Under the pieces are notes generated by a model. It ran no database searches. It was given only the letters and a program-made list of their open reading frames with translations, and had not been told where the DNA came from. Made by a program: the position numbers and the translations under genes. This document shows positions 6,835 through 30,634 of a stretch of DNA of 32,750 nucleotides, piece by piece (the first letter of the stretch is position 1; each line of letters starts with the position of its first letter). The stretch spans positions 1 to 32,750 of the forward strand of contig JAEETK010000011.1 in the NCBI GenBank assembly GCA_016290315.1, read 5' to 3'. This DNA comes from Candidatus Saccharimonadota bacterium (GTDB taxonomy: Bacteria > Patescibacteriota > Saccharimonadia > Saccharimonadales > Saccharimonadaceae).

Positions 6835-7524
6835 ATGAACGAATTTATCGCCCAGTTCACTCTCCCACTCTCAATCATCGCAGTCGTCCTGTTTATTATC
6901 GCCGGTCTCATATGGCTATTCTTTTGCCACGGCATAGATAAACTAAGGTATCCCGAAGAATGGAAAGATGAGGGAAAATCCGGAGAACAAATCATCTACC
7001 GCTTACTGGTAGATAAAATTCATGTTCCAGAAAGCCAAATTCTTAGAAACGTATACGTTCCGACGGAAGACGGAAAGACGTCCGAAATAGACATACTGGC
7101 GGTATCAAAGAAGGGCTTATTGGTTTTTGAATGCAAAAACTATGCTGGGAATATCTATGGTGATGCAAAAAGAAATAAATGGATTCAATATCTCGGAAAG
7201 AAGAAAAGCTACTTCTATAATCCATTCATGCAGAATAGAACCCACGTCAAACATCTTAAAAAATACCTAGAGGCTTATGGTGACGTTCCAGCTATTCCGA
7301 TGGTATCCACTATTTCGCGAGGGAAGTGGAAAGTAAAGAATTGCTCACCAGAAGACTATCTACTCGGCTATAATTCACACTTAAAAGATATCCTCTCAAA
7401 CACTCCAGATTCAGACTTAATTGGTCGACATTTCAAGGCTCTTATGGCAAAACTTCAGCCACTATCGCGCCCGGGAGATTCCATTAGAGAAGAGCATATT
7501 AAGCAAATTAAACTCAATAAGTAG
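6835..7524 (+). CDS. Membrane-anchored NERD-domain (nuclease-related) protein
   Basis: 229 aa. An N-terminal hydrophobic helix (about 8-30) is followed by a NERD domain at about 45-160. The family's nuclease-like core is visible: GKSGEQIIYRLL, then EIDILAVSKKGLLVFECKNY, which contains the ExD...ExK pattern of restriction-endonuclease-like folds. NERD proteins are thought to process DNA, often in plasmid- or defence-linked settings; the substrate here is unknown. The gene ends immediately before an IS3 remnant, so its last residues may have been altered by the insertion. The N-terminal helix would place the domain on the cytoplasmic face. Confidence 0.75.
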   Translation: MNEFIAQFTLPLSIIAVVLFIIAGLIWLFFCHGIDKLRYPEEWKDEGKSGEQIIYRLLVDKIHVPESQILRNVYVPTEDGKTSEIDILAVSKKGLLVFECKNYAGNIYGDAKRNKWIQYLGKKKSYFYNPFMQNRTHVKHLKKYLEAYGDVPAIPMVSTISRGKWKVKNCSPEDYLLGYNSHLKDILSNTPDSDLIGRHFKALMAKLQPLSRPGDSIREEHIKQIKLNK

Positions 7525-7526
7525 TA

Positions 7527-7972
7527 CGACCCACATCTGCATATATTTAGATATCTACTCCCGGAAGGTTGTTTCATGCAATATCGGAAGATCCGCCAGT
7601 ACACACCTCGTTAAAATGCCACCCATTCGAGCTTGCGCTCTACGTAGACCAAAACAAGGCCTCATTGTCCATACAGACGGCGGCGCCCAATACGATTCCT
7701 GGAGTATGCGCCGAGAATACCTCAAAAGACATATTCAGCACTCAGTTTCTCGTCCCGGTACGCCTACAGACAATCCACTAATCGAATCGTTCTTCTCTAG
7801 GCTAAAAGAAGAATTCCTGAACGTGCATTTCTTTCGCAGTGAAGCAGAATTATTCGAGAGATTAGCCGAACATATAGATTTCTACAACGACCAACGCATC
7901 CATGAAGACTTGAACGACCTTTCTCCAACCGAATTCGAGCAAAAGGTTGTTTCGGTAAAAAGTCCAGTTTAA
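7527..7972 (+). pseudogene. IS3-family transposase, C-terminal fragment
   Basis: In frame 2 the fragment matches the second half of the intact transposase at 13251-14393. It keeps the second catalytic Asp in VHTDGGAQY and the Glu in LIESFFSRLKEEF, but lacks the N-terminal HTH part and the first Asp (the WVADITE region). A one-codon shortfall relative to the intact copy lies around LVKMPPIRACAL. It cannot be active alone. Identity to the intact copy is only moderate, so it is a different IS3 lineage rather than a recent duplicate. Confidence 0.85.
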
Positions 7973-8860: not shown

Positions 8861-8917
8861 TTGACAAAACGGGTCTACAAGTGTTAGACTATAAGCGGTG
8901 GTCTAATAGTTATAGAC
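8861..8917 (+). promoter_or_regulatory. blaI-type promoter with two palindromic operators
   Basis: The -35 TTGACA (8861-8866) and -10 TAGACT (8885-8890) are 18 nt apart. Two 17-bp palindromes share the arms GTCTA-N7-TAGAC: GTCTACAAGTGTTAGAC at 8873-8889, overlapping the -10, and GTCTAATAGTTATAGAC at 8901-8917 just downstream. The first contains ACAAGTGT, resembling the BlaI/MecI core. They are probably autoregulatory sites. Confidence 0.75.
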
Positions 8918-8934
8918 CCGCAAGGAGGATTATA

Positions 8935-9297
8935 ATGAAAAATTACAAACTTGGAGATATGGAGTTGGAGTTTGCCAACTTAATCTGGGAGAATGAGCCG
9001 ATTTCCTCTGGAGGATTGGTACAGCTCTGTGAGCAGAAATTCTCTTGGAAAAAATCCACCACATATACGATGCTGAAGCGTCTTTGTGATAAGGGCATTT
9101 TTCAAAACAATTCGGGCAATGTCGTTTCTGTCCTTTCAAAACAGGAGTGGTTTACGAAGCAAAGTGAGGGCTTCGTGGAAGAAACATTCAACGGTTCTTT
9201 GCCGCAATTCTTAGTGGCGTTTACCCGCCGCAAAAAGCTCTCAAAGCAGGAAATCGCTGAAATACAGAAAATCATCGACCAAAATGCAGAGGAATGA
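8935..9297 (+). CDS. blaI: BlaI/MecI/CopY-family repressor
   Basis: 120 aa starting at ATG 8935, which has an excellent ribosome-binding site (AAGGAGG, 8922-8928); the frame opens further upstream but without one. The winged-helix DNA-binding domain shows the family pattern: LGDMELEFANLIWENEPISSG, then WKKSTTYTMLKRLCDKGIF for the recognition helix region. BlaI-type repressors sit as dimers on the palindromic operators upstream and are cleaved when the partner M56 sensor is activated. The stop overlaps the next gene (ATGA), as in bla/mec-type pairs. Promoter, operators and strong ribosome-binding site are Firmicutes-like and differ from the neighbouring genes, so horizontal transfer is likely. 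What signal is sensed here is unknown. Confidence 0.88.
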   Translation: MKNYKLGDMELEFANLIWENEPISSGGLVQLCEQKFSWKKSTTYTMLKRLCDKGIFQNNSGNVVSVLSKQEWFTKQSEGFVEETFNGSLPQFLVAFTRRKKLSKQEIAEIQKIIDQNAEE

Positions 9298-9299
9298 CT

Positions 9300-10607
9300 A
9301 TGAGCGACAAAGTATTTCTCGATATTGTAAATATGAGTATTACGGGCAGCTTCGCCATCTTAATTATTATACTGGCACGGCTGCTGCTGAAAAAAGCTCC
9401 AAAGGTTTTCTCCTACGCAATATGGTTTGTTGCCTTTTTCCGTCTGCTTGTCCCCGTTTCCTTTGAAAGCGTTTTGAGTATATTACCGTTCAACACAACG
9501 CCGCTTTCTACGGATATGCTTTACATTGAAACCCCTTATGTGGAAACGGGCGTAAAAGCGATAGACAGCGTAATCAACCCTGTTGTAGCAACTGAGGTTT
9601 TCGGTTCTACCGCAAATGTATATCAGATATTTGCCTTTTGGGGGAAGATTATCTGGTTCATCGGCGTTTTGGCATTTTGCCTGTATAGCATACGCTCATA
9701 TTCCAAACTCAAAAAGAAATTACAGAGTGCCGTCCTTCTTCGGGATAATATTTATATTTCGCAAGTAATCAGTACGCCCTTTGCGCTTGGATTGCGAAAT
9801 CCAAAAATATACTTGCCGAGCAATTTGGCTGACGCACAGGAATATGTAATTGCCCACGAACAGACGCATCTCGCTCGGCGTGATAACCTTGCGAAAATAT
9901 TAGGATATGTCGTTCTTATCCTGCATTGGTTTAACCCTCTTGTGTGGCTTGCGTTCAAGCTGTTCGTTACCGATATGGAAATGTCCTGCGATGAAAGCGT
10001 AATCAGAAATTCAAAGGAGGATATTCGCAAAGAATACAGCCAGTCGCTTTTAGAGCTTTCTATTGAAAAAAGCACACTTGGCGTACCGATGGCGTTTGCC
10101 GAGGGAAATCCCAAAGAAAGGATAAAAAATGTTATGAAATCAAACACGAAAAAAATCATTGGATTTGCAGGTTTAGGAGCGGTAATTTTAATTGCGGTCA
10201 TTGCAATATGCCTTATTCCTAACCGCCCGCAGTATGCGACGGCAAAGGATGCTATTACAGGCATCCCCGCAATAGCTACGCAGTCTGCAACTCATGCTGC
10301 AATAAAGACTGCCGATGGAAATACGACCATTACAGATAGTGAAGGCTTCAATCAACTGCTGACCTTTATAGAAAATATTGAGGTCAACACGAAAGAAGTC
10401 AAGAGAGGCTCTTGGAATGACAGCGAGGGAAATAATAAAATTACATTTTACCGAGCAGACAATTCTATGGACTCCGTAATCAGCTTCACTTCTGATTATT
10501 CTAAGATTTGGATTGAAACAAACGCAACGCTTTCTTTCACATATAGCGTGAAAGACTCAGCAGAAGTGCAAAAGGGACTTGCGGCTTTCCTTGGCAGCAA
10601 TAGCTAA
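9300..10607 (+). CDS. BlaR1-like M56-family membrane sensor metallopeptidase
   Basis: 435 aa from ATG 9300, which is 7 nt behind GAGG; an alternative ATG at 9294 overlaps the blaI stop. Membrane helices lie near the N-terminus (from SITGSFAILIIILARLLL), around residues 110-130, and again in the middle. The M56 zinc site reads HEQTHLARRDNL (HExxH) with a downstream helix LVWLAFKLFVTDMEMSCDESV that holds the third ligand Glu. A helix (IIGFAGLGAVILIAVIAICL) then leads to an extracellular domain of about 130 aa that is not a penicillin-binding sensor domain. No beta-lactamase gene is nearby, so the regulated target is unknown. Together with blaI it forms a complete regulatory pair on a foreign segment. 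Confidence 0.85.
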   Translation: MSDKVFLDIVNMSITGSFAILIIILARLLLKKAPKVFSYAIWFVAFFRLLVPVSFESVLSILPFNTTPLSTDMLYIETPYVETGVKAIDSVINPVVATEVFGSTANVYQIFAFWGKIIWFIGVLAFCLYSIRSYSKLKKKLQSAVLLRDNIYISQVISTPFALGLRNPKIYLPSNLADAQEYVIAHEQTHLARRDNLAKILGYVVLILHWFNPLVWLAFKLFVTDMEMSCDESVIRNSKEDIRKEYSQSLLELSIEKSTLGVPMAFAEGNPKERIKNVMKSNTKKIIGFAGLGAVILIAVIAICLIPNRPQYATAKDAITGIPAIATQSATHAAIKTADGNTTITDSEGFNQLLTFIENIEVNTKEVKRGSWNDSEGNNKITFYRADNSMDSVISFTSDYSKIWIETNATLSFTYSVKDSAEVQKGLAAFLGSNS

Positions 10608-11034: not shown

Positions 11035-11979
11035 GCTTCGTCGAGAGAAGGAAAAATTGAGCATAAGCAGGAAAAACTACTTGAAGCACATTTCAACGAT
11101 GCAATCCCCCTCAGTTTAATGAAGCGAGAACAGCAATCATTATCAAAAACAGCTCTCAGCTATTGAACATGAAATCAGCGTCCGCAGCACTACGTTCGAT
11201 GATATCCTCAAGAATCTGTCTCTTGCCTTCGATCTAATCGAGGATTGCGGCAGAACTTATCGAAAAGCGAACGATAATATTAAAAACTCATGTGCCAAGC
11301 TATATTCAAGAGAATCTGGATACATGAGGACGGGACAGTAACTACAGATTTTACTGACATATATAAGAATATCGTCGGCCCAATTGAGCATGATTTGATT
11401 AATCAGAACACGAAATCAGCGTCTGCCGAAGCAGACGCTGATTCTATCCACAAGTTACTCAAATCCTACTCAAATTTTTTTGGGCAGGGTTTGAATAACG
11501 AACTTTTGGTGGACCTATCGCAAACCTACTCGAACAATTACCAAATAATTCGCGATTACGTCAAGAATCACGCTTCTACCCCTGTTAATACTGATGTAGA
11601 TCCAGCTATAGTAGACCAGTCCTACAATTCAGATTGTATAGTAAAATCCATCAAACGACAGCAAAAGACACTTACCGAGCTAGAAACTAGAACTATTTGT
11701 GAGAGGTACAAGAATGGCGCTTCAAGCTATGAACTCGCCAAAGAATTCGGATGCCACCATAGAACTATCTGTGATGCACTCAAGCGAAATGGTGTAGAGG
11801 TATCTCATCAAGCAGCAAAGAAGCCGGAGCTCACCAAGAGGATTATTGAACTATATGCAGAATATAAGACGCCGAAGGAAATAGGTGCCATAGTCGGAAT
11901 TGGCTGCGATACGGTCCGCAAGGTCCTCAAGGAGAACGAAATCTATATCCGCAAGAGCTGGGAGTATCCGAAGCAATAA
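11035..11979 (+). pseudogene. Large serine recombinase, C-terminal part, with two opposite single-base indels
   Basis: Frame 1 gives REGKIEHKQEKLLEAHFNDAIPL, frame 2 (about 11150-11284) gives AIEHEISVRSTTFDD...LIEDCGRTYRKANDNIK, and frame 1 again from about 11287 gives MCQAIFKRIWIHEDGTV. Joined, these form the coiled-coil and end region of large serine recombinases. The first shift is one extra A in the five-A run at 11145-11149; the second is one missing A in the five-A run at 11282-11286. The tail contains VDLSQTYSN and two HTH-like segments, identical in design to 2-298. The catalytic Ser domain is absent; the sequence upstream is methyltransferase. Only the last 229 codons (from ATG 11290) form one open frame. 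Confidence 0.72.
11682..11979 (+). repeat. Direct repeat of bases 1-298
   Basis: Base 1 aligns with 11682, and the two segments differ at only scattered positions through the common stop codon (for example GCATCAAAG versus GCAGCAAAG). They are in the same orientation about 11.7 kb apart, so recombination between them could delete or circularise the intervening surface-protein and mobile DNA. The first copy continues beyond the window start. Confidence 0.9.
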
Positions 11980-13029: not shown

Positions 13030-13250
13030 GCTAATTCTCCGCGCGTTACTAATATTTACGGCATCGTATAGCGCAAATAAAAACGACACCGCAGGGTGTC
13101 TATATCCATATCACAATCCGGTGTTGCCGTCTTGCTTAGCGGTGCCGTTTTAATACGACAACCGCCAAATTATTAGCCCCGGATTGCTCAGATTGTTATA
13201 TGAATATAGACATCTTCATTATATCACGCTCACTTCTTTACAATATAAGC

Positions 13251-14393
13251 ATGAGCAAGCATATATCTAAAGCCAAGAAAAAGAAAATCGTAAACAAATA
13301 TTACAAAGGTGCGAAAATACCAGACTTAAGCAAACAATACCGTATTCCTATCAGCACTATATATACATGGATAAAGAAATATTCTCCAGCACACCTCAAG
13401 CACAAGTTCCTCGCACAAGCTACAGACTACCGAAACCTCGAGAAACGCGCCACTAAATTCGGAAACGAGTTGAACCTATTACAGAGCTTCCTTGAATACA
13501 AAGGAATAGAGAATAAAGAGCGCTACGAATTCATGGACCTCCTCTACGGAAAATTCACCATCCATGAACTATGTGGAGCCTTTAATATCGATCGCGGCAC
13601 CTACTACAATCATCTGCGCAGCAAAGATAAATACACTCACTTCAAAGACCGCAATGCTCGGATTGACCCCATCATATATAAAATACATAACGACTTTAGA
13701 GAATATGGCGCCGAAAGAATCGCCATTGCTATCAGGGAAGAGACCGGCGAAGCTGTAAGTCCAGACTATATCAGAAAACGTATGAGATACCTTGGAATCG
13801 AGAGCAGTCTCACAAAAAAGCCGAAACCAAGATTTCTCCGATGGAATACACGCAAACAAACATTACTCGTTAAAAAATACGAAGTAACAGACATAAATCA
13901 GGTCTGGGTAGCAGACATTACGGAATGCCAGATTAAAGGAATAAAAAGATACATTAGCATCTACGAGGATTTATGCTCAAGAAAAATCATTGCATATAAT
14001 GTAGGATACAATCAAACAACGCAACTTGTTCGGCTTGGGCTCGATCACGCAATGAAGACCAGGCATCCAAAACCCGGTCTTTTTATTGTTCATACAGATG
14101 GCGGAGCTCAATATAACTCATGGACTATGCGTAGGCTCTACGCTAAATATAAAATCAATCACTCCGTCTCCCGCCCGGCTATGCCAACGGACAATGCAAA
14201 TGTCGAATCATTTAACAGAACTTTAAAGTCCGATTTCATTAAAGGAGGCGATCAGTTCCATAGCGATTTCGAATTCAGGGAGAAATTAGATGAATTTATC
14301 GAGAAATATAACAGCACCCGTGTTCATACTGCTCTAGGCACCTCACCGGATAAGTTCGAAGAAAAGCTCAAAAATAGGTCAAAAGAGTCATAA
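13251..14393 (+). CDS. IS3-family transposase, single-frame OrfA-OrfB type
   Basis: 380 aa from ATG 13251; an in-frame ATG at 13200 would add a hydrophobic leader with no ribosome-binding site. The N-terminus has an HTH (IPDLSKQYRIPISTIYTWIKK), followed by a HTH_21-like region (YGAERIAIAIREETGEAVSPDYIRKRM) and an rve integrase core. The catalytic triad is visible: Asp in VWVADITE, Asp in VHTDGGAQY and Glu in NVESFNRTLK, with exactly 35 residues between the second Asp and the Glu. IS3 elements usually need a -1 frameshift to fuse OrfA and OrfB; here both parts are already in one frame. A -10 TACAAT (13239-13244) ends 6 nt before the ATG. Confidence 0.9.
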   Translation: MSKHISKAKKKKIVNKYYKGAKIPDLSKQYRIPISTIYTWIKKYSPAHLKHKFLAQATDYRNLEKRATKFGNELNLLQSFLEYKGIENKERYEFMDLLYGKFTIHELCGAFNIDRGTYYNHLRSKDKYTHFKDRNARIDPIIYKIHNDFREYGAERIAIAIREETGEAVSPDYIRKRMRYLGIESSLTKKPKPRFLRWNTRKQTLLVKKYEVTDINQVWVADITECQIKGIKRYISIYEDLCSRKIIAYNVGYNQTTQLVRLGLDHAMKTRHPKPGLFIVHTDGGAQYNSWTMRRLYAKYKINHSVSRPAMPTDNANVESFNRTLKSDFIKGGDQFHSDFEFREKLDEFIEKYNSTRVHTALGTSPDKFEEKLKNRSKES

Positions 14394-20410: not shown

Positions 20411-22168
20411 ATGGGAAAAATCAAAGCGATATTGTTCGCTATCTTGCTAGCAACGGCTTCAATGCTATTTGCCGTCACCAATACTTACGCTAATGAGGTC
20501 TGCGTCGCAGCCGGCGTCAGTGATCCAATCTTATGCGGGAATCACAACTCAAATGAAGAGAGAGAGCTAATAAACCGCACAAGCAACGTTCTCAGCGTCG
20601 TATATACATTCATCGGCATAGCGGCTGTGGTGGTAATTATTATCGGCTCCATAATCCTAATGACATCCAGTGGCTCGCCCGAAAAAGTCCAAACAGCAAA
20701 AAGAGCCATCTTGTACGCCGTTCTTGGCCTCGTAGTTACACTTTCAGCATTCGCCGCGACAACATTAACCATAAACGCACTAGAAGGCAACACGCAAACC
20801 TCAGCTGCCGACGATGAAAAAATAAGGCAGCGAAACACCGAGCACGCTAAGGTTAAAGCTATTTCGGCCGTTAACGAGACGACGATACTTATCGATCAAA
20901 GCATAACACTTAAGCCAGTAGTAATCCCAGATTATGCAGAAAATAAGAGCCTATCATACAAGACCAGCGACGCCAGCATTGCAACCGTAGACGAAAATGG
21001 AAAAGTTACCCCGAAAAAAGTTGGCGATGTGACTATAACAATCATATCCGCAGATGGCCCAACAAAAGACGTAAAAATACACGTCGTTAAACCAATTTCC
21101 GTCGAAAAAATCAATATCAACCCCACAGCCCTCACCTTGAGCATTGGCAAAACCGCCACAATAAGAGCCGAGGCATTGCCGCGAAACGCCCTAGACAGGA
21201 CCATTACTTGGACTAGCAGTAACCCGCAATCCGTCACGGTTACTCAAACCGGAGAGGTAAAAGCAGTTGGATCCGGAAAAGCCACAATCATTGTCGCCTC
21301 AAAGGATAAATCTGTCACAGCTACCGCATTAGTAACCGTACAGGGCGGCGCGGACGGCTCTCTAGAAACCGAACCTGCACCAGTAGGCAAAAAAGCACCC
21401 AAAAGCCTTGATTTTAGAGCCGCCACACGTAAAATTATCAACCAACACAGGAAAGATTTTGACTGGTGTAACTACGAATCAAAAATTAAAGAGCTTGGCG
21501 GATACACGGCCTATGTCAAGAGTCTTGGCGGAATCTTTGCGGATAATGTAAATAAGAAGTTCAAAGTGAAAACCGCCGCAGAGCTACAATATGCAGCAGA
21601 GTACGTCTGGGGACTCTGGACAATTTGGGGGCCAGATTACGACAATGGCAAGACATACCACAAGTGGGGTCTTGGCGCGGCCGACGGCTTCCATAATTGC
21701 CATGGTGACCGTCATGCTGGCTCTGGCTACTCGCAGGCAGAAATTAATAACTTGTTATCCAAAAAGAAAAAAGTGCGCACAAACTGTAACGCATCCCAAA
21801 CAACATTCAATAGTACAACTGACTTGTTCCAAATCGACTCTACGAAGTTTAAAACCCAAACAAAGATGAGCCCAGTCGGTAGAATTACTAAGACTAACCA
21901 ACTTCAGGTTGGTGACTGGGTGCACTTCTTCAGGCAACCAGGCCATAAAAAATGGGGGCACGTTGCTATGGTAGGTGAAGTATACGATGATTACGTCATA
22001 ATTTACGAAGGCGGGGGGCGCTTCGTAGAATCAACTTACTTTAAGCACAAACTCAAACGCACGGGCGACGGCAGACTTAGCGATAGCTACTCCCACTTTA
22101 AATCGTGGTTCGGCGTTAGGCCGTTCAAGATCGATCAAAGCGTATATCTAAAAGGCATGAACCCATGA
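20411..22168 (+). CDS. Secreted T4SS-pilin-like / Big_2 / NlpC-P60- or CHAP-like hydrolase fusion (paralogue 1)
   Basis: 585 aa. The signal peptide runs to about residue 27. Residues 28-125 form a VirB2/TrbC-like pilin module with two Cys (31, 42) and two helices (about 60-84 and 98-120) split by a polar turn (SGSPEKVQTAK). Two Big_2 Ig-like domains follow (about 146-225 and 228-310). The C-terminal 250 residues end in a region resembling NlpC/P60 or CHAP hydrolases: Cys459 in TNCNAS, the strand GDWVHFF, His517 in WGHVAMVGEVY and Glu533 in YEGGGRF. The expected activity is peptidoglycan amide or peptide cleavage, inferred from fold pattern only. Paralogue of 24078-25997. The stop overlaps the next ATG (ATGA). 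Confidence 0.75.
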   Translation: MGKIKAILFAILLATASMLFAVTNTYANEVCVAAGVSDPILCGNHNSNEERELINRTSNVLSVVYTFIGIAAVVVIIIGSIILMTSSGSPEKVQTAKRAILYAVLGLVVTLSAFAATTLTINALEGNTQTSAADDEKIRQRNTEHAKVKAISAVNETTILIDQSITLKPVVIPDYAENKSLSYKTSDASIATVDENGKVTPKKVGDVTITIISADGPTKDVKIHVVKPISVEKININPTALTLSIGKTATIRAEALPRNALDRTITWTSSNPQSVTVTQTGEVKAVGSGKATIIVASKDKSVTATALVTVQGGADGSLETEPAPVGKKAPKSLDFRAATRKIINQHRKDFDWCNYESKIKELGGYTAYVKSLGGIFADNVNKKFKVKTAAELQYAAEYVWGLWTIWGPDYDNGKTYHKWGLGAADGFHNCHGDRHAGSGYSQAEINNLLSKKKKVRTNCNASQTTFNSTTDLFQIDSTKFKTQTKMSPVGRITKTNQLQVGDWVHFFRQPGHKKWGHVAMVGEVYDDYVIIYEGGGRFVESTYFKHKLKRTGDGRLSDSYSHFKSWFGVRPFKIDQSVYLKGMNP

Positions 22169-22689
22169 AAACAAATACAAATAATAAGATTAATCTAATA
22201 GCACCAATCATTGTTAGCGCCGTCGCAATCGCCGTCATAATAGTTACCTGCATTATCCTAGTAAATGTTAATTCAAAGAATATAGAGGCCGAGATTCGCG
22301 AAGCTATCAACTCAGGGGTTCTCGAAAAAGACTATTCACCCTTAATGAAGCTCAGTGAAGAACTAATCGGACAAAAAGTATTTCTAGACGACGCCGAAGA
22401 AAAGTTTTCAAACGAAGAAGACTTGTACGACTTCTATGTCGCAGAGAACAATGGCTATATTGCAGATAAAAGTTCGAGCGAAAGAATTACGTTCGACATT
22501 ATTATCGAAGAAGCGGACGCGCCACCTACCTTAATTGATTTCGTTTATCACGAGACTATCGGAGACAATGACTCTTTCGTCATGAAATCAAGCGAAAACA
22601 CTTTCCAACATTTTAATGGTTACGTTACCAATGAGTTCAGTAATATAGACGAAGCCCTAAGGGATCATCTAATCGTAAGGGAGGATTAG
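22165..22689 (+). CDS. Small one-pass membrane protein, FNG-motif family (member A)
   Basis: 174 aa. One N-terminal helix (about 11-36) follows a short cytoplasmic segment, and the rest is an exported acidic domain. The C-terminus carries FQHFNGYVTNEFSNIDEALRDHL, a pattern shared with the proteins at 25999 and, more loosely, 22695 and 29744. I know no family for it. The start ATG overlaps the stop of the enzyme-pilin gene, which strongly suggests translational coupling and a shared role, for example as chaperone, pilus accessory or immunity factor. That role is inference. Confidence 0.65.
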   Translation: MKTNTNNKINLIAPIIVSAVAIAVIIVTCIILVNVNSKNIEAEIREAINSGVLEKDYSPLMKLSEELIGQKVFLDDAEEKFSNEEDLYDFYVAENNGYIADKSSSERITFDIIIEEADAPPTLIDFVYHETIGDNDSFVMKSSENTFQHFNGYVTNEFSNIDEALRDHLIVRED

Positions 22690-22694
22690 CAAAC

Positions 22695-23285
22695 ATGCAA
22701 AATCAAAATCAAATACTAAGCCCAATGCCACCAATTAACCAGACGTCACAGACCCCTGCGCCAGCGCCACAACAATTCAGCAAAAAATCCACCATTATTA
22801 TCATTGCTTCAGCCATCGTAGTAGCAGCAATTATAATCGCAGCCACAATCGTCATCCTGAATATTCAAAAAACTCCGCCCGATGGCCAAAAGCCAGGAGG
22901 CGCAGACGGGACCGTCAAAGAAATAAACGAATTTAACGAAAAAGAAGACGGCACTAAAAATACACAGACACTTATACAATATTCGTCTCTCCCCAGCACA
23001 ATCAGCCTTACCGAACTAAAGAGTACAATCGGAAATTCTGGAAAAATAGAAATAGTCGACAATTCGGGTAGCATCGATCTTGGTGACGTTGACGAGTATA
23101 TCTCGTTCGATATTGATGGCGACCAGGTAAGTAATTTTATATACACTAAGGATCAAGGCGACTACGCAATTTTCATCCAGGAAACCGATACGGGGACATT
23201 CGAATATTATAGCGGCATAGGTACATATGCCGTAGAAACGAAGCAAGAGGCAATCTCCCTATATCTCAAGACAAAGCAAGAATAA
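22695..23285 (+). CDS. Small one-pass membrane protein, FNG-related family (member B)
   Basis: 196 aa. A Pro/Gln-rich N-terminal tail (about 1-30) is followed by a helix (about 33-57) and an exported domain. The C-terminal half aligns with member A at the pattern ISFDIDGDQVSNFIY...F...FEYYSGIGTY....EAISLYL, with the FNG core changed to YSG. The family is unknown. It begins 5 nt after member A and ends just before a promoter at 23290, so it probably closes the first transcription unit. Confidence 0.6.
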   Translation: MQNQNQILSPMPPINQTSQTPAPAPQQFSKKSTIIIIASAIVVAAIIIAATIVILNIQKTPPDGQKPGGADGTVKEINEFNEKEDGTKNTQTLIQYSSLPSTISLTELKSTIGNSGKIEIVDNSGSIDLGDVDEYISFDIDGDQVSNFIYTKDQGDYAIFIQETDTGTFEYYSGIGTYAVETKQEAISLYLKTKQE

Positions 23286-23289
23286 GGCG

Positions 23290-23298
23290 TGATATAAT
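23290..23298 (+). promoter_or_regulatory. Extended -10 box inside the enzyme-pilin locus
   Basis: TGATATAAT, followed by a leader of about 40 nt with a GGGG ribosome-binding site before ATG 23344. It would allow the second half of the locus to be transcribed separately. Confidence 0.55.
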
Positions 23299-23343
23299 CA
23301 TAACAGCATAACGCTTATGTAAAAACTAATACGGGGTCAATCA

Positions 23344-24081
23344 ATGCAAGAGCAAAACTATATACAACTTCAACCAGCCTCAACAGTTAACGCCGCCAAA
23401 CAGAGTAGGCTAAAATTGGTGTTTATTATAGTCTCAATCGTAATTATCATCTTAGCCATAATTGCCGCCTGCATTGTGATTTTTAAAGAAAACAACACCA
23501 TTTTCGTCACTAACCACGGTTGGACCATCACGAGGGACGAAAGAAGTAATGAAAACATCATCACTTTAGCTCTAGAAGTCGAAAACACTTCAAAAAACAA
23601 ATACGCAAGCGACATAACGGTAGCTGCAGAAGTATACGATAACGGCAAGGAAGTCGCAAGCATCATGGACGCATGCTATATCGAATATTTAGCCCCAAAC
23701 GATAAGGCCTACTGCGCAAGCAACATAATTCAAGAGAGCGACTATAATATTACAGATATGGCGTTCACGATTAATGGTAAGACCTTAAAATATAGCAATT
23801 ACAATGCTAACGAGCAAACAAATAGCAACTCATTTGAGGTTGCCGATATTGACGACGAGGATAAGGAGAACATATCCTGCACAATCAGAAATAATAGCAG
23901 CGTCGCCGTAAACAATCCAATTGCGACCATAGTGTTTTATAAAGACGGGAAGATTATTGGTGGCGCTAGTGGCGAAATAGAGGAAGAAACGCTTCCATCA
24001 AAAGGGGAAACATCAATCCAATTCTACGGAAACCGCATACAGGAATACGATGAATACAAAATAGGCGTAACTGGCATATGA
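23344..24081 (+). CDS. Membrane-anchored protein with tandem FxLYD-like beta domains
   Basis: 245 aa. An N-terminal cytoplasmic tail and one helix (about 25-48) lead to an exported region with two similar beta domains. The first contains ITLALEVENTSKNKYASDITVAAEVYDNGKEV (about 70-100). The second contains ISCTIRNNSSVAVNNPIATIVFYKDGKII. This pattern (N-T-S/S-S then A.V.FYD.G) is typical of FxLYD and related adhesion or accessory domains. Function unknown; the gene is coupled to the second enzyme-pilin by an ATGA overlap at 24078-24081, so it is probably an accessory of that protein. Confidence 0.6.
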   Translation: MQEQNYIQLQPASTVNAAKQSRLKLVFIIVSIVIIILAIIAACIVIFKENNTIFVTNHGWTITRDERSNENIITLALEVENTSKNKYASDITVAAEVYDNGKEVASIMDACYIEYLAPNDKAYCASNIIQESDYNITDMAFTINGKTLKYSNYNANEQTNSNSFEVADIDDEDKENISCTIRNNSSVAVNNPIATIVFYKDGKIIGGASGEIEEETLPSKGETSIQFYGNRIQEYDEYKIGVTGI

Positions 24082-25997
24082 AAAACAAGCTCCCAACCAT
24101 ACTGGCCGTACTTGCGCTCATACTTACGCTAACACTTGCTATTACGCCAAAAGCATATGTATTCGCAGGCGGCGATGCATGCTCGATAGCTGGAAATTCA
24201 GATCCGCTGCTTTGCGGCAATCAACATAGCGACGAAGAATTAGCATTGATGAAACGCATCAAAGATGTTTTGCACGTTGTATTTACAGCAATTGGCATTA
24301 TCGCTGTCATAGTTATCATTATCGCAGGCATACGCCTGATGCTATCGAAAGGCGAGGCGCAGAAAATATCCCAAGCAAAAATGGCAATATTTTACTCCAT
24401 TAGTGGTCTAGTGGTGACATTTTGTGCTTTCGCATTCACGGATCTAGTAATCGGCGCCATTTATGGACAACTACCAGGCGAAACCGTAGCAACAACTCCA
24501 GACAAAAGCCACACTGAAGTTAAGGCAATCAGTTTAATGCGCAAAATCGCCATGACTGTTGGTCAAACTTTACAGATTAACCCAAGAGTTATTCCAGATT
24601 ACGCCACAGACCAAAGTCTCACTTACAAGTCAAATAATGCATCTATTGCTAACGTAAATAATGCGGGCGAAGTTACAGCGGTTAAAAAGGGCGAAACGGA
24701 TATCGTCGTGTCGTCAAAAAACGGCGTCAAGAACCAAACCACAATCGTAGTCTACGATAAAACACTAGCTGAAAGGATAGTAGTCAGCCCCACCACCGTA
24801 TCGTTACAAGTGGGCCGAACTACTCAGGCAACAGCAATAGTGTATCCAACGAACACGACCGATAAAACCCTAAAATGGACAAGCGCCAACGAAAATATAG
24901 CTAAAGTAAACATAGCTGGCCTCATTTCAGCAGTTAAGCCAGGCGATACCATAATCACAGCCAAGACAAAGAACCCTGACGCCTCACAGCCAGGAGTCCA
25001 GGGAATTATCAAAGTGCACGTAGAGAGCCCAGATAGAGGCTACGTCGTCAATCCTTACAATCCGGATGACGGTGGCAATGCCGGAAGCGGCAAAGAAACT
25101 ACAGGAGCCACAACAAACGTAAAGTATTCCGGATGGCTAGATTTTCGCGAAGAGACCAGACAAATCGTCAAAAAGAACATGGACGGCATTAATTGGCAAA
25201 ATCACGATTCTTTCCTAAAATCGCACGGTGGATACGCCAACTATGTCAATAGCCTAGGGGGAGTGTTCTCAAAATTTGGCGGCAAAGATGAAAAAATCCC
25301 GATCAAAACTGCAGCCGATCTACAAGAGGCAGCAGAGTATTTCTTCGGCATTTTCTCAATTTACGGGCCAGACTATAGCGCCGGCGGCCGTTGGCCAGTC
25401 TGGGGAGAAAATCAAAATAATCACGGCGTTGCCAAAAAGGGAACACCTGACGGATTCTATTATGGCTATGACGACCGACCATACAAGAAATCAAGTGCCG
25501 CAAGGCCATGCGGAAGACATGTTCAGATGGCTATAGATTACGAGTTTGGTAAAGGCTACAAGGGCGAGAGTTGTATCAAGAAACGCGTCCGCGGCAACTG
25601 CAATTATAGCCAAGACAGTTTTATCCGCCAAACGAACCTACAACTACCATCATCTAGCAATAGCTGGACATCTGAAAACACACACCACAATAAATCTAAA
25701 ATTAAACACGCCAATGAGCTACAGGTTGGCGACTGGGTACATTATTATTCGGGCGGAGAATGGAAACATATCGCTATAGTCGGAGAAGTATATCAAGATA
25801 TAGTAGTACTTTATGATGGCGGAGGACGTTTTAATAGAAGCATGCACTACAAAAAAATTATGTACCGCGACACAGATTCGCTCAAAGGCACCGAATATAG
25901 CGGCTATAGTAAATGGGACGCCGTACGCTTATGGGACATCGACCAAAACGTAACACTCAAAGGAATAAACGATAAACCAAAAAACTGGATTTGGTAA
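24078..25997 (+). CDS. Secreted T4SS-pilin-like / Big_2 / NlpC-P60- or CHAP-like hydrolase fusion (paralogue 2)
   Basis: 639 aa, same order as paralogue 1: signal peptide to about residue 30, pilin module with Cys35 and Cys46 and helices at about 63-89 and 101-128, Big_2 domains (about 146-226 and 230-316), a Gly-rich linker (about 330-345), then the hydrolase-like domain. Conserved with paralogue 1 are AADLQEAAEY..G...IYGPDY, Cys508 in GNCNYS, GDWVHYY, His564 in KHIAIVGEVY, Asp580 in YDGGGRF, and the closing DIDQNVTLKG. The conservation of the Cys/His/acidic set while the Ig part drifts argues for selection on activity. The gene is flanked by coupled small membrane proteins on both sides. 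Confidence 0.75.
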   Translation: MKNKLPTILAVLALILTLTLAITPKAYVFAGGDACSIAGNSDPLLCGNQHSDEELALMKRIKDVLHVVFTAIGIIAVIVIIIAGIRLMLSKGEAQKISQAKMAIFYSISGLVVTFCAFAFTDLVIGAIYGQLPGETVATTPDKSHTEVKAISLMRKIAMTVGQTLQINPRVIPDYATDQSLTYKSNNASIANVNNAGEVTAVKKGETDIVVSSKNGVKNQTTIVVYDKTLAERIVVSPTTVSLQVGRTTQATAIVYPTNTTDKTLKWTSANENIAKVNIAGLISAVKPGDTIITAKTKNPDASQPGVQGIIKVHVESPDRGYVVNPYNPDDGGNAGSGKETTGATTNVKYSGWLDFREETRQIVKKNMDGINWQNHDSFLKSHGGYANYVNSLGGVFSKFGGKDEKIPIKTAADLQEAAEYFFGIFSIYGPDYSAGGRWPVWGENQNNHGVAKKGTPDGFYYGYDDRPYKKSSAARPCGRHVQMAIDYEFGKGYKGESCIKKRVRGNCNYSQDSFIRQTNLQLPSSSNSWTSENTHHNKSKIKHANELQVGDWVHYYSGGEWKHIAIVGEVYQDIVVLYDGGGRFNRSMHYKKIMYRDTDSLKGTEYSGYSKWDAVRLWDIDQNVTLKGINDKPKNWIW

Positions 25998-25998
25998 A

Positions 25999-26493
25999 AT
26001 GAAGAAAAAGAGCATCATTATAACATCGTCAGTAGTGCTACTGTTTATAGCAATCACAATCACTACGGCAGCAATCGTCTTTGTCAATAAGACTCAAACC
26101 GGCCAACAAACAGAAGACGATCAGCCCTTCGATATTGATTACACCGATATGCAAAAAGTATACTACAACTTCGAAACAGAGATGCAGCTTGACGAAATTA
26201 AGCAATTCGCAAAAGAAATCAACGAAAAGATTGAAGTGCAAACCGGAGAAGATTGGGGTAAAATTTTGCTCGAAGATTCTCGCGAATTTATTGATTTCAG
26301 GCCAGTTACATACGATGGAAATACATATGCGGAAGACATAATATACTACGACAGGAGCGAAGGTGTTACGACCTATATCCTCAAGAGTAACTATTCCAAA
26401 TATACCCATTTTAATGGCGTTTCAGCGACCGAATTCGACACCATAGAGGAAGCGATCAGCGACCACATCCAATACACAAAGTATCAAGAGTAA
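25999..26493 (+). CDS. Small one-pass membrane protein, FNG-motif family (member C)
   Basis: 164 aa. A basic start (MKKKS) and one helix (about 6-28) are followed by an acidic exported domain. The end reads YTHFNGVSATEFDTIEEAISDHI, the same block as member A. It begins 1 nt after paralogue 2 and is followed by a strong terminator. Thus both hydrolase-bearing proteins are directly followed by an FNG protein. Function unknown. Confidence 0.65.
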   Translation: MKKKSIIITSSVVLLFIAITITTAAIVFVNKTQTGQQTEDDQPFDIDYTDMQKVYYNFETEMQLDEIKQFAKEINEKIEVQTGEDWGKILLEDSREFIDFRPVTYDGNTYAEDIIYYDRSEGVTTYILKSNYSKYTHFNGVSATEFDTIEEAISDHIQYTKYQE

Positions 26494-26512
26494 AAACCAA
26501 TAAATAATAAAT

Positions 26513-26546
26513 AAATACCCACCAGCTAACTGGCGGGTATTTTTTT
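26513..26546 (+). terminator. Rho-independent terminator
   Basis: ATACCC-A-CCAG pairs with CTGG-C-GGGTAT around the loop CTAA, followed by TTTTTT. It ends the plus-strand enzyme-pilin operon. Confidence 0.9.
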
Positions 26547-26692
26547 GTATTAGACATTTTCCTATTCTATGAATATACCAAGCGAATAGGGTAGCTCCAC
26601 CTCATTCTCAAACATCAATAGGCAATAACTTATTAAATCGCCGTATAAAGCCTTTGCCTGCGAAGTTACGCGTCGCAATGACGCCCTAAGCC

Positions 26693-29149
26693 CTATATAA
26701 GCTCCTTGAATGGTTTTCTACTTGAATAATAGTAGCCAAAACCGTTAAGGTTACAATAGCTCTTTATCGTTTTTTCTCTATCTTTATTATCTCCGTACTC
26801 TAGAAGATACACGAAGAGGTTTGCCGCCTTTACTTTCTTGAGATACTTCTTTAGATACTCGGTATCTTCTGAATTTTGCTTATGGCCATCGTTATCCGAG
26901 AAAACCTCCTCCTGATTTACGCCGTCAAACAATTCCTTATACGAACCGTCCTGAATCGATCTAGTCACAAAATCATCAGCACCATTTATCATAACTTCCA
27001 CACCTCTGCTATGGATTTTCCTTAAAATATTTTGCAGACCCGCATATAGTCCAGTCTTTTTACTTTTGTAATAATAATATACATCCAAGTTATCGATATA
27101 GTAGCCATCGGCGCCCTTAGCTCTAAGTTTAGGCTCAAGCTCTTCCGTAATAAAATCTTGCCATACCTTACTAGACGCATCCACCCACTGTTCTGCATCC
27201 CAACCCTCGTATTTCCCCAAAAGAAGCTTCTTAAAACGTTTGTCGCCACTGTAATACCGAGAGCCATCCGACCATTCGATAGCGCCAACATTAAGGTAAG
27301 AATATACCTTTATACCTTTGGCATGAAGCTCATCGATAAACGCTTTCGGAAATCCTTCTTGGAAGTCTATTACTACGTGATCGTGCGCATATAGCCTGCT
27401 TAATTTATTTCTATCCTTGTTGTAATCAAGCCCAAGATATACTCCGTATTTTTTACCAATCTTTGCCGAAGACTTACCAGTCACGGTAACTTTTACTTTC
27501 GCAGATTTACCGTTCGCCGTTCGTGCTGTAATAGTCGTTTCGCCAACTTTCACGCCTTTCACTTTGCCGGCTGATACGGTCGCAATTTTTTCGTCATCGG
27601 ACGTCCACGTCACACCTATATTAGTCGCATTTGCAGGGTATATCGTATAACCTATCGTTTTCGAATCACCGACGCCCACCTTTATGTCTGTCATATTTAA
27701 CTTGATACAAGTCGGCTGCACACCGCTAGTTACAGTCGTACCGCCACCAGAAGAGCCACCATTGCCACCACCAGAAGCAGAATCAGAATTATTCCCAGTA
27801 TCCACAACCGGCGAAAAATTTCCTATCGGCATAATCAGTAAGTCTAATACAATAGACATGCCGCACCAAAGCACGAGCCCAATTACGATCGCATAGAAAC
27901 GATTCTTAGCTGACACAAGTTTACCAGAATCGCCCGCCGCCGTCATTACAATATAGCCAGTAAAAAGAACGCCCAATGTGCCAGCCATCCCCGCAGAAAT
28001 AGTCAAGAAGTCAATTACTCCGTTAATAATGCTACCAATTGATGCTGTAGAGTTCGTTGGCGAGCATAAGCTACCTGGCAAAATCGAGGTACATTGGATT
28101 TGACGAGTAGGCGCAACCGTTACGGGCGGATTGTCTTTAGGGTCTAAATGCTTGCGCGTCGATGCAATCCCGCATTCGCAATTTACATCCGACGGGTCGC
28201 AGCCACCTTTCGGATCAGAAACAATTAACGGATTATTAATATCGACATTTGTAGATTCGCTAATGCCCAAAGTCTTACCGCTAACAGCATAAATAGCGGT
28301 GCCATGCCCCCAGCCAGTGCGATCATTATTCGTCGGAACCATCATGAATAGGCCGCCATCGCTACCAAAGGCCAACCCCTCAATTAGTCCCGTCTTTACG
28401 GCACTTTCAGCAATCTCAATATCCTTTACGTGCTTGTTTTCTTTATGGTTGTAAAAACGTAAAATTGCGCCACGCCCAGGGACCAAGTCGTTTACCACTA
28501 AGTAATTCCCCCAAGTAGCAGGACCTTCCTCATACTCTGTGCCAGTATAATTATCAGTTTTAGTGTCCTTAATGGTCTTAAGGTTTCCATCCTTAATCTT
28601 GTGACCCTCATTTCCAGTCCAATACCAGTCGTATGTTTGGTTATATGCAAGTTTAGCGCTACCAACACCGTCTATCCTTTTTTCATACTTCATCGTCACA
28701 TCATCAAACACAAACGTCCCCGCCTGAGTTGCTAATAGCAATTTACCAGAAGTGTAATTATACGCAAAAGAACTGGCATGACCGTAGCAGCCGGGGTCGC
28801 CATATCTACTACATGAAAAATGTCTCTTTTCCGGTATTGTCTTAACAACCTTAAAAGTCTTACGATCTATAAAATAAATTCTGCTTCTCGTCGTTGGCTT
28901 ATAGCCACCTTCATCGATTAAGTATGAAATTACAATATGCGTTGGCGTTAAAGTAAAGCCTTGCACCTCACCGCCGCCATTATTGACGAAACAATCGCTT
29001 CCAGCACCGCAATTTTCTCCGACTTTAAAGTGCTTCACGAGTTTTATACCGCTACTTATTTTAGTTAGGGCTGCGGCATTATTTGAAAAAGATAATACCC
29101 CAATCGTCATAAATGCAAAAGCCAACAGCCAATAGAGTTTATTCTTCAT
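26693..29149 (-). CDS. Secreted beta-rich / T4SS-pilin-like / Big_2 / GH114 glycoside hydrolase fusion
   Basis: 818 aa. The signal peptide (to about 28) precedes a beta-rich domain of about 280 residues, possibly a beta-propeller. A Cys-rich stretch (about 317-362) leads to a pilin-like module with two helices (about 375-403 and 416-440) and a polar turn between them, then a Gly/Ser linker (456-470) and one Big_2 domain (about 480-557). The C-terminus (567-818) is a GH114 barrel of the endo-alpha-1,4-polygalactosaminidase type: HVVIDFQ, IKVYSYLNVGAIE, WDAEQWVDASS..WQDFI, GADGYYIDNLDVYY and VMINGAD. Likely acidic catalytic residues are Asp595 and Asp686. GH114 enzymes cut galactosamine-rich exopolysaccharides such as biofilm matrix. 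The start overlaps the stop of the small membrane protein upstream by 11 nt. Confidence 0.8.
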   Translation of the reverse strand: MKNKLYWLLAFAFMTIGVLSFSNNAAALTKISSGIKLVKHFKVGENCGAGSDCFVNNGGGEVQGFTLTPTHIVISYLIDEGGYKPTTRSRIYFIDRKTFKVVKTIPEKRHFSCSRYGDPGCYGHASSFAYNYTSGKLLLATQAGTFVFDDVTMKYEKRIDGVGSAKLAYNQTYDWYWTGNEGHKIKDGNLKTIKDTKTDNYTGTEYEEGPATWGNYLVVNDLVPGRGAILRFYNHKENKHVKDIEIAESAVKTGLIEGLAFGSDGGLFMMVPTNNDRTGWGHGTAIYAVSGKTLGISESTNVDINNPLIVSDPKGGCDPSDVNCECGIASTRKHLDPKDNPPVTVAPTRQIQCTSILPGSLCSPTNSTASIGSIINGVIDFLTISAGMAGTLGVLFTGYIVMTAAGDSGKLVSAKNRFYAIVIGLVLWCGMSIVLDLLIMPIGNFSPVVDTGNNSDSASGGGNGGSSGGGTTVTSGVQPTCIKLNMTDIKVGVGDSKTIGYTIYPANATNIGVTWTSDDEKIATVSAGKVKGVKVGETTITARTANGKSAKVKVTVTGKSSAKIGKKYGVYLGLDYNKDRNKLSRLYAHDHVVIDFQEGFPKAFIDELHAKGIKVYSYLNVGAIEWSDGSRYYSGDKRFKKLLLGKYEGWDAEQWVDASSKVWQDFITEELEPKLRAKGADGYYIDNLDVYYYYKSKKTGLYAGLQNILRKIHSRGVEVMINGADDFVTRSIQDGSYKELFDGVNQEEVFSDNDGHKQNSEDTEYLKKYLKKVKAANLFVYLLEYGDNKDREKTIKSYCNLNGFGYYYSSRKPFKELI

Positions 29150-29603
29150 AATTCTCCCTCATGTAGCAATTCAATATAGCATACGTAGTTGAATCAGTCA
29201 TTCTCAGTAAAGCGCCGTTTGTAGAAAGCATATATTCCAAATTAGGGCCAGTTCCACCAGACACATTTAAGTACCCGTCCACGCTATCGTAGAGATATTT
29301 TCGACTATTATTTTCGGTTAAGTCTATAAAGTTGCCCGCTCCATCAATCCGTATCATTTTACTATCATCATTACACCCCCATACGCCAATAATGCGGGCA
29401 AGAGAAGGCACTTCGAAATCGTCTTCATCAACATATTCAACTATACCGGTATTCTGATAGTCGTCATCGTCAGAGGCCTTATTGCCGACGTAATTATTAA
29501 TTGAAACGGTCTTTATAATCATCATCACTATTGACAAGATTACAGCGCCAATCGCCACACATATAATAATCAAAAATTTACGCTTATCGACATCTGGATA
29601 CAT
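29139..29603 (-). CDS. Small one-pass membrane protein coupled to the GH114 fusion
   Basis: 154 aa. A short N-terminal tail (MYPDVDKRK), one helix (about 9-32), an acidic linker (DDDDY, VDEDDFEV) and a small exported beta domain that begins IIGVWGCNDDSKMIRIDGAGNF. This is reminiscent of lipocalin-like or META-like folds. It lacks the FNG motif. GAGG lies before ATG 29603. The stop overlaps the start of the GH114 gene, so the two proteins are made together. Function unknown; accessory or protective roles are possible. Confidence 0.6.
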   Translation of the reverse strand: MYPDVDKRKFLIIICVAIGAVILSIVMMIIKTVSINNYVGNKASDDDDYQNTGIVEYVDEDDFEVPSLARIIGVWGCNDDSKMIRIDGAGNFIDLTENNSRKYLYDSVDGYLNVSGGTGPNLEYMLSTNGALLRMTDSTTYAILNCYMRENYEE

Positions 29604-29743: not shown

Positions 29744-30634
29744 ATGGGCAAAGATAGCGAAGATGATAATAAGGTAGAAATAGAGCGAATAACCGACTCG
29801 CCAAATATTGACACTGACTCGAATGACATTGATGGTTTACGGGATGCAATATCTTCTAGCTCGCAACAATCAAAAATAGATAAAAAGCCGATTAGACAAG
29901 AAGACATCAAATTCGATTCCGCAAATATTAGCCGCCCAGACGGAAAAGAGCTAATGGTCAACGTCGAGGGTTCTCAAAAGCGCAAAATCGAAGAAGCAAA
30001 ACAAAAAAAGAAAGATCAACAAGAAGCCGAAAAACGCAAAAAAACCGAAGAACGTAAGCGTAAACACGACGCGCAAGTAATCAAGCGCAACAAACGCATC
30101 AATAATTTAAGAACTATTGCCCAAAAGATTTGGAAACTGAAATTCGTATTCCTTGGCGTAATTATAATAACAGCTATCGTTATCCTGCTAGTAAAAGTAA
30201 TAAACCCGACCGTTAGCAAGATTAAAACCGAAACTAAGAAAATAGCCGAAGAAAAAATCGTCGAGGAGAATAAGACCACTATAATAAAAATCTATCAGGA
30301 GTTGGCTGGGAAAAAATTCACAAAGGAAGAGCTTGAACAAATCGTCAATTCAAAAAATGCAAACATATCCATAACATACGAAGACAGTAGCGGCGATATT
30401 GGCACCGCCAATGGCGGAGCTGAGTCAATCATCTTTAGTATCAGCCAAGACGGCCAAAATACAATATCGAACTTCTACTACTATAATTGCATTGACGACA
30501 AAGACGTCGAGATTTTCGGAGCAGACGGCAATTATCAATACAATTACGACAATCAGCTCAAAAACTTCGACAATATAAATGAAGCTATAAGTGCGTATAT
30601 TCTCGAGATGCACGAAGCAGGGAATGAAATCTAA
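29744..30634 (+). CDS. FNG-related membrane protein with long charged cytoplasmic tail (member D)
   Basis: 296 aa. A long hydrophilic N-terminal part (about 1-130), rich in Ser/Asp first and then in Lys/Glu/Arg (about 75-110, likely coiled coil), precedes one helix (about 132-152). The exported part has KIYQELAGKKFTKEELEQIV, similar in position to LSEELIGQKVF of member A. It ends with the block IIFSISQ..QNTISNFYYYNC...NFDNINEAISAYI. Compared with members A-C it has gained a cytoplasmic tail that could contact ribosomes, DNA or a secretion ATPase. It is directly joined (0 nt) to the large surface protein gene. Confidence 0.6.
   Translation: MGKDSEDDNKVEIERITDSPNIDTDSNDIDGLRDAISSSSQQSKIDKKPIRQEDIKFDSANISRPDGKELMVNVEGSQKRKIEEAKQKKKDQQEAEKRKKTEERKRKHDAQVIKRNKRINNLRTIAQKIWKLKFVFLGVIIITAIVILLVKVINPTVSKIKTETKKIAEEKIVEENKTTIIKIYQELAGKKFTKEELEQIVNSKNANISITYEDSSGDIGTANGGAESIIFSISQDGQNTISNFYYYNCIDDKDVEIFGADGNYQYNYDNQLKNFDNINEAISAYILEMHEAGNEI

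Follow-up and report, generated by a model that had tools for sequence, protein, structure and literature searches.

Enzyme-like domains on VirB2-like pilin modules in a Candidatus Saccharibacteria genome

Passages found by term search in two recent studies describe type IV secretion system (T4SS) loci of Patescibacteria with arrays of 2–11 divergent VirB2-like pilins (Quinonero-Coronel 2025, PMC12102498; Wang 2023, PMC10633639). Southlakia epibionticum cannot grow as an epibiont without its T4SS and pilin array (PMC10633639), yet a 2024 review calls the role of the T4SS in Saccharibacteria 'completely unknown' (PMC11665869). Here we describe three proteins, termed enzyme-pilins, in which a pilin module of this kind is joined to immunoglobulin (Ig)-like Big_2 domains and an enzyme-like domain. 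They are encoded on a contig of 32,750 nucleotides from a Candidatus Saccharimonadota bacterium (contig C50), the whole of which is the window analysed. The genome comprises 1.2 Mb in 74 contigs, with 98% completeness and 8.4% contamination, and the closest relatives that have a name are metagenome assemblies of Candidatus Saccharibacteria, several of them labelled with ruminant gut sites such as yak rumen, goat omasum or sheep rumen.

The published arrays share with our genome the pilin family (PF18895) and the locus type (VirB4, PrgI, VirB6 and tandem pilins), and the retrieved passages mention no pilin-enzyme fusion (PMC12102498, PMC10633639). Searches of a partial library, which matched terms rather than whole papers and excluded supplements, found no report of enzyme fusions to PF18895/T4SS_pilin; in no paper found does a pilin serve as a chassis for exchangeable enzymes. 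VirB1-type hydrolases of Gram-positive T4SS (PrgK, TgaA, 89K hydrolase) are likewise wall hydrolases associated with a T4SS. Unlike the enzyme-pilins, however, they are separate proteins without a pilin fusion and are thought to open the donor's own wall. Low-copy specialised subunits such as VirB5 tip proteins and minor pilins are expected at a T4SS contact structure, the position that we propose for the enzyme-pilins, although VirB5 has neither a pilin fusion nor a hydrolase. The GH114 endo-alpha-1,4-polygalactosaminidase family (PF03537), usually a stand-alone secreted enzyme, is shared by the third of our proteins, where it ends a pilin-Big_2 protein.

All three open reading frames (585, 639 and 818 residues) reported in an earlier sequence-only reading of the window were found in place (Table 1). 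A signal peptide, assigned by inspection, a pilin module, Big_2 and an enzyme-like domain occur in each of them, as had been claimed; the common plan does not extend to the details of protein 3, which differs by its N-terminal ~340 residues, its single Big_2 and its use of another pilin paralogue. Proteins 1 and 2 consist of a signal peptide, a cysteine pair in the motif CxxAGxxDPxxCG (C31 and C42 in protein 1), a two-helix T4SS pilin, two Big_2 domains and a C-terminal domain of ~250 residues. The Pfam T4SS_pilin family is matched at 38.6 bits by protein 1 and at 30.5 bits by protein 2 (cut-off 26.6), and the paired Big_2 domains at 85 bits (residues ~147–311) and 80 bits, respectively; the module of protein 1 also exceeds the NF045849 cut-off. 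In a structure model of protein 1, the pilin helices span residues 49–84 and 90–124. Foldseek and VIA-align searches with this model returned Ig domains only, Big_2 dominating the comparison and the CHAP-like and pilin parts being barely probed.

The C-terminal domains of both proteins score under the Pfam cut-offs: protein 1 (residues ~330–585) matches CHAP at 19.4 bits (cut-off 26), and protein 2 matches NLPC_P60 at 18.8 bits (cut-off 23) and CHAP at 17 bits. Across a nine-row alignment of CHAP-like domains, cysteine and histidine are invariant and followed by Asp or Glu in third place, giving putative triads C459/H517/E533 in protein 1 and C508/H564/D580 in protein 2. The Cys-His-acid order described before thus holds, with the active-site residues kept. 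A CHAP-like cysteine peptidase is the supported assignment for these domains, as distinct from formal family membership. Searched against the PDB by sequence, the CHAP-like profile gave just chance matches to antibodies.

Protein 3 comprises a signal peptide, an uncharacterised N-terminal domain of ~340 residues, a pilin module at 343–445, one Big_2 at 488–553 (36 bits) and a GH114 barrel at 590–796. The barrel, already recognised in the sequence-only reading, matches PF03537 at 65.1 bits (cut-off 27), and D686 and E747 align with the acids of the solved GH114 protein 9ep5; the family match and the two catalytic acids together place it within GH114. A model of this protein from a three-row alignment (predicted local distance difference test, pLDDT, 42.6) was used just to note a helix pair at the pilin position.

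The T4SS locus of the same genome lies on contig C10 and encodes VirB4 (P-loop_TraG, 104 bits), a VirB4 N-terminal partner, PrgI (43 bits), a VirB6-like protein, a 623-residue protein and a pilin array; the VirB6-like protein has no Pfam match and was named by its position and membrane character. Of the T4SS genes for which the sequence-only reading had advised a search, VirB4 and a VirB6-like gene are present, and VirD4-like coupling genes are weakly indicated. Seven free pilins are encoded at the locus. One array pilin exceeds the cut-off of Pfam TrbC/VIRB2 (PF04956; 30.2 vs 27.9 bits), a family outside which the window proteins fall, protein 2 reaching just 8.6 bits. The third gene of the array, amid pilin genes, is itself a 554-residue pilin-Big_2-Big_2 fusion with an SGNH/DUF4886-like C-terminus (DUF4886 under cut-off). 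The genome-wide search added to the fusions of the window, in this case from within the pilin array of the T4SS. In other genomes of the genus the array order is largely kept: slot 1 is followed in turn by a double pilin, slot 3 and the short pilins. Most congeners have a plain pilin of ~120–160 residues in slot 3, and at least six genomes have the same SGNH-like fusion there. Within a second T4SS operon, a VanY fusion (L236) adjoins the slot-1 pilin. Weak PF18895 matches elsewhere in our genome, on contig C49 and near 14.7 kb of C10, are not fusions. The 623-residue protein (L018:1403–3274, minus strand) combines phage-lysozyme, SGNH and NlpC-like parts and is a candidate VirB1-like protein; most pilin-bearing Patescibacteria have no VirB1, according to a published survey.

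A tree of 138 pilin domains, built on 102 columns and with many forks open, unites proteins 1 and 2 of the window with the operon fusions and almost every other stalk fusion in one group (support 97/93), and places two fusions of genome G006 with plain slot-3 pilins. The modules are thus either encoded with the T4SS pilin array, as the fusion in slot 3, or derived from it, as their placement in the tree indicates. In protein 3, the T4SS_pilin match of 15.5 bits is under the Pfam cut-off, and the NF045849 score is under its own as well. A profile of T4SS-operon slot-1 pilins, all from other genomes, settles this weak call by matching residues 343–445 at 62.6 bits (E 3e-18); the module evidently derives from another pilin paralogue than those of proteins 1 and 2. 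Most simply, the stalk would have arisen from slot-3 pilins, probably on more than one occasion, and a second set from slot-1 pilins. A 460-residue protein (L023:4731–6113, plus strand) is homologous to the N-terminal domain and slot-1 pilin of the GH114 protein and has neither Big_2 nor enzyme.

Across 39 fusions, net charge is positive in the loop between the helices and negative on either side of the hairpin, indicating that both termini face outward. The modules display the layout of a pilin, with a signal peptide, two transmembrane helices, a short positive loop and outside termini, and fused and free pilins alike retain G69, K97 and G106. Judged by their homology to T4SS-operon pilins (Pfam, slot profiles and tree), the two-helix modules of all three proteins are real T4SS pilins (PF18895/NF045849, VirB2-like) and not an unrelated anchor, which agrees with what was first proposed for them.

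In orthologue comparisons, the pilin modules of the window proteins have a ratio of nonsynonymous to synonymous differences (pN/pS) of 0.047, and free operon pilins one of 0.044. The ratio rises to 0.20 in the segments that anchor the neighbouring bitopic proteins in the membrane and to 0.45 in signal peptides. Modules and anchors differ with a Fisher p of 0.002, an optimistic value given that counts were pooled over pairs with a common reference. By this measure, the fused module is kept like a pilin.

Stalk fusions are present in ~13 of the 45 genomes of the genus, with up to ~10 in one genome, and at least ten kinds of C-terminal domain are mounted on the stalk in this set; enzyme swapping on a constant stalk, proposed from the window, extends far wider than the window itself. 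The commonest classes are CHAP-like (15 rows), SGNH-like (8) and alpha/beta hydrolase (5), next to two C39-like clusters (4 and 3), small CHAP/NlpC-like domains (3), GDPD-like domains assigned by motif (2) and NlpC/P60 (2, at 34 bits). Singletons include C39-like and metallo-beta-lactamase-like domains, and the SleB-like label of L087 comes from inspection only. Slot-1-type pilins carry GH114, VanY (three cases, 38–43 bits) or an esterase (35 bits). Envelope targets are plausible for most of these C-terminal domains. A 332-residue reading frame in G006 (L106), taken at first for a pilin-Big_2 protein without enzyme, was rejected as such, being a CHAP-like fusion split by an assembly gap.

Among 393 genomes of the order, the Big_2 stalk is detected in 12 at a strict threshold, 4 of the 12 matches covering the pilin part only, and is confined to this genus and, in combination with C39, to one genome of a second genus in its family. 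A different family of the order has a pilin-GDPD protein that lacks the stalk. A distant Patescibacteria genome encodes pilin-SLT-GDSL and pilin-SLT-Amidase_2 proteins near each other, with pilin, GDSL, SLT (in the first protein) and amidase above Pfam cut-offs; these fusions appear to have arisen as an independent case. Other Patescibacteria bear Ig-type ectodomains on the same PF18895 module. The reverse domain order occurs at L138:7287–8237 (plus strand), where an endolysin-like domain (ELLD, 43 bits) stands N-terminal to the pilin; this gene adjoins that of an 842-residue GH114 enzyme-pilin homologue.

We propose, with a probability of roughly 0.55, that the enzyme-pilins serve as minor pilins of the T4SS and present envelope hydrolases where the cell meets its host, a model whose assembly, catalysis, target and benefit we infer. 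It rests on the homology to operon pilins, the fusion within the array, the exchange of enzymes, the retained catalytic residues and the tight constraint on the pilin module, together with the need of a relative for its T4SS and pilin array. Sec would export the proteins and leave the pilin hairpin embedded in the membrane, both ends outward and the loop inward, a topology shared with free T4SS pilins. The T4SS (VirB4, VirB6 and PrgI) would then handle the module like its own pilins and bring it into the base, shaft or tip of the contact structure. The Big_2 domains may act as spacers keeping the C-terminal hydrolase off the cell, and the enzyme (cysteine peptidase, D,D-carboxypeptidase, esterase, phosphodiesterase or glycosidase) would cut the envelope or matrix of the epibiont's host bacterium, opening a path for the T4SS or for feeding. 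Pilin paralogues that bear wall hydrolases would suggest a concrete role for the T4SS, namely to open or digest the host's envelope where the two cells touch, and the enzyme types would predict the host polymers attacked, which could help to pair parasites with hosts. A bolder version is tentative and rather doubtful: a T4SS contact pilus with exchangeable wall-degrading heads on minor subunits, some accompanied by membrane-anchored self-protection proteins, would make the T4SS a wall-breaching organelle fitted to the host species. Our findings support the interpretation given in the sequence-only reading, of which pilus assembly, enzyme activity, the target cell and use as a 'weapon or feeding device' form the conjectural part.

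Several points weigh against minor pilins at the contact site. To our knowledge, a pilus has never been shown for any Saccharibacteria T4SS, and most enzyme-pilin genes, including those of the window, are far from the T4SS locus. A C-terminal extension of 450 residues may pack poorly in a filament, which would admit the fusions at most as minor or tip subunits. The CHAP-like assignment is below the Pfam cut-off, profile comparison of the CHAP-like with the NlpC/P60 fusions gave no match, and the pilin part of the protein 1 model has low confidence (pLDDT 45–50). A profile of 19 pilin modules matched no solved VirB2 or conjugative pilin in the PDB, which, for a search by sequence only, is not evidence against pilin identity. 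The distance from the T4SS locus also favours the main rival explanation, in which the hairpin is reused as a mere membrane anchor and surface ectoenzymes spread over the parasite act on the adjacent wall of the host or on the rumen matrix, with no assembly by the T4SS. For such display, a hairpin of two helices plus Big_2 spacers would be enough, and Patescibacteria do mount large Ig-type ectodomains on PF18895 modules. We nevertheless hold a mere anchor to be somewhat unlikely: constraint on the fused modules equals that on free operon pilins and exceeds that on ordinary anchors, the modules retain the same glycines and lysine as the free pilins, and fusions sit in pilin slots inside the T4SS array.

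The pilin module might instead be an export ticket, by which the T4SS would pull the protein out of the membrane and pass it as an effector to the surface or envelope of the host, with no filament involved. VirB4-type ATPases are known to remove pilins from the membrane, a constant N-terminal part with exchangeable enzymes behind it resembles an effector set, and some cysteine-peptidase fusions with coupled partner genes resemble toxin-immunity pairs. However, no delivery signal was identified in the fusions, the two cysteines and two Big_2 domains look like surface architecture, and VirD4-like coupling genes are only weakly indicated in this genome; we consider this route improbable. Less probable still is that the enzymes remodel the parasite's own wall for passage of the T4SS or pilus. 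A hydrolase of VirB1 type is the norm in Gram-positive T4SS, and a separate lysozyme/SGNH/NlpC-like protein is encoded at the locus, but that protein could already fill the role. Moreover, the number and variety of the enzymes, GH114 and GDPD included, exceed the needs of local wall opening, the Big_2 spacers point away from the own wall, and most congeners have no stalk fusions.

Given the 8.4% contamination of the bin, a foreign source of the three genes was considered and rejected, because G005 and G052, which have ~1% contamination, carry the same genes with the same neighbours, and the window resembles the T4SS contig in its tetranucleotide usage. Chance or broken reading frames were likewise rejected, all three being open in several genomes with ratios of nonsynonymous to synonymous substitution (dN/dS) of 0.05–0.12.

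In seven of eight orthologue groups, CHAP-like fusions are followed at −7 to +9 nucleotides by a small gene for a protein with a single transmembrane segment and an ectodomain. The C39-like fusions L094, L085, L098 and L218 each have an abutting partner gene, convergent in the last three; inspection of neighbours revealed no partner gene beside SGNH-like, esterase, GDPD, NlpC/P60 or GH114 fusions. The partner family has no Pfam match. Its close members occur only in genomes with fusions and distant ones elsewhere too, and orphan partner genes are found at G000:C17 (L261) and G046:C3 (L262). Their linkage allows the guess that these proteins serve in immunity, inhibition or as chaperones, for self-protection or folding. 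Bitopic proteins with a GxWxCxxD-like motif overlap the starts of the slot-1-type 818- and 460-residue proteins (window 29139–29603, and upstream of 4731 in L023) and would represent a second kind of coupled partner.

Table 1. Features of the enzyme-pilin region of the window (aa, amino acids; nt, nucleotides; TM, transmembrane segment)
Feature	Position	Strand	Basis or remark
Enzyme-pilin 1 (585 aa)	20411..22168	+	Pfam, alignment, model, purifying selection
Partner protein of enzyme-pilin 1 (174 aa, N-terminal TM and ectodomain)	22165..22689	+	4-nt overlap with enzyme-pilin 1 stop
Second partner-family paralogue (196 aa)	22695..23285	+	
Bitopic protein (245 aa), FxLYD domain	23344..24081	+	NCBIfam NF038353, 31 bits; 4-nt overlap with enzyme-pilin 2 start
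Enzyme-pilin 2 (639 aa)	24078..25997	+	Pfam, alignment
Partner protein of enzyme-pilin 2 (164 aa, N-terminal TM and ectodomain)	25999..26493	+	1-nt gap
Hairpin, 13 pairs, T tail on minus strand	26513..26542	.	Between two convergent transcription units; consensus match only
Enzyme-pilin 3 (818 aa)	26693..29149	-	Pfam, slot-1 profile, 9ep5 alignment, own-genome matches
Bitopic protein (154 aa), just upstream of enzyme-pilin 3	29139..29603	-	11-nt overlap with enzyme-pilin 3 start

A further single-transmembrane protein of the partner family is encoded at window positions 29744–30634. Outside the enzyme-pilin region, inspection of the window shows a gene for a 1560-residue surface protein (426–5108, plus strand) in which numerous BspA-like repeats accompany a von Willebrand-like region. 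A BlaI-like repressor followed by a BlaR1/M56-like sensor protease (8881–10607, plus strand), also recognised by inspection, is an odd pair for a reduced genome. Near-identical ends of a helix-turn-helix reading frame lie at 2–298 and 11290–11979 (plus strand), with transposase fragments nearby at 7421–7972 and 13200–14393; the combination suggests recent element activity.

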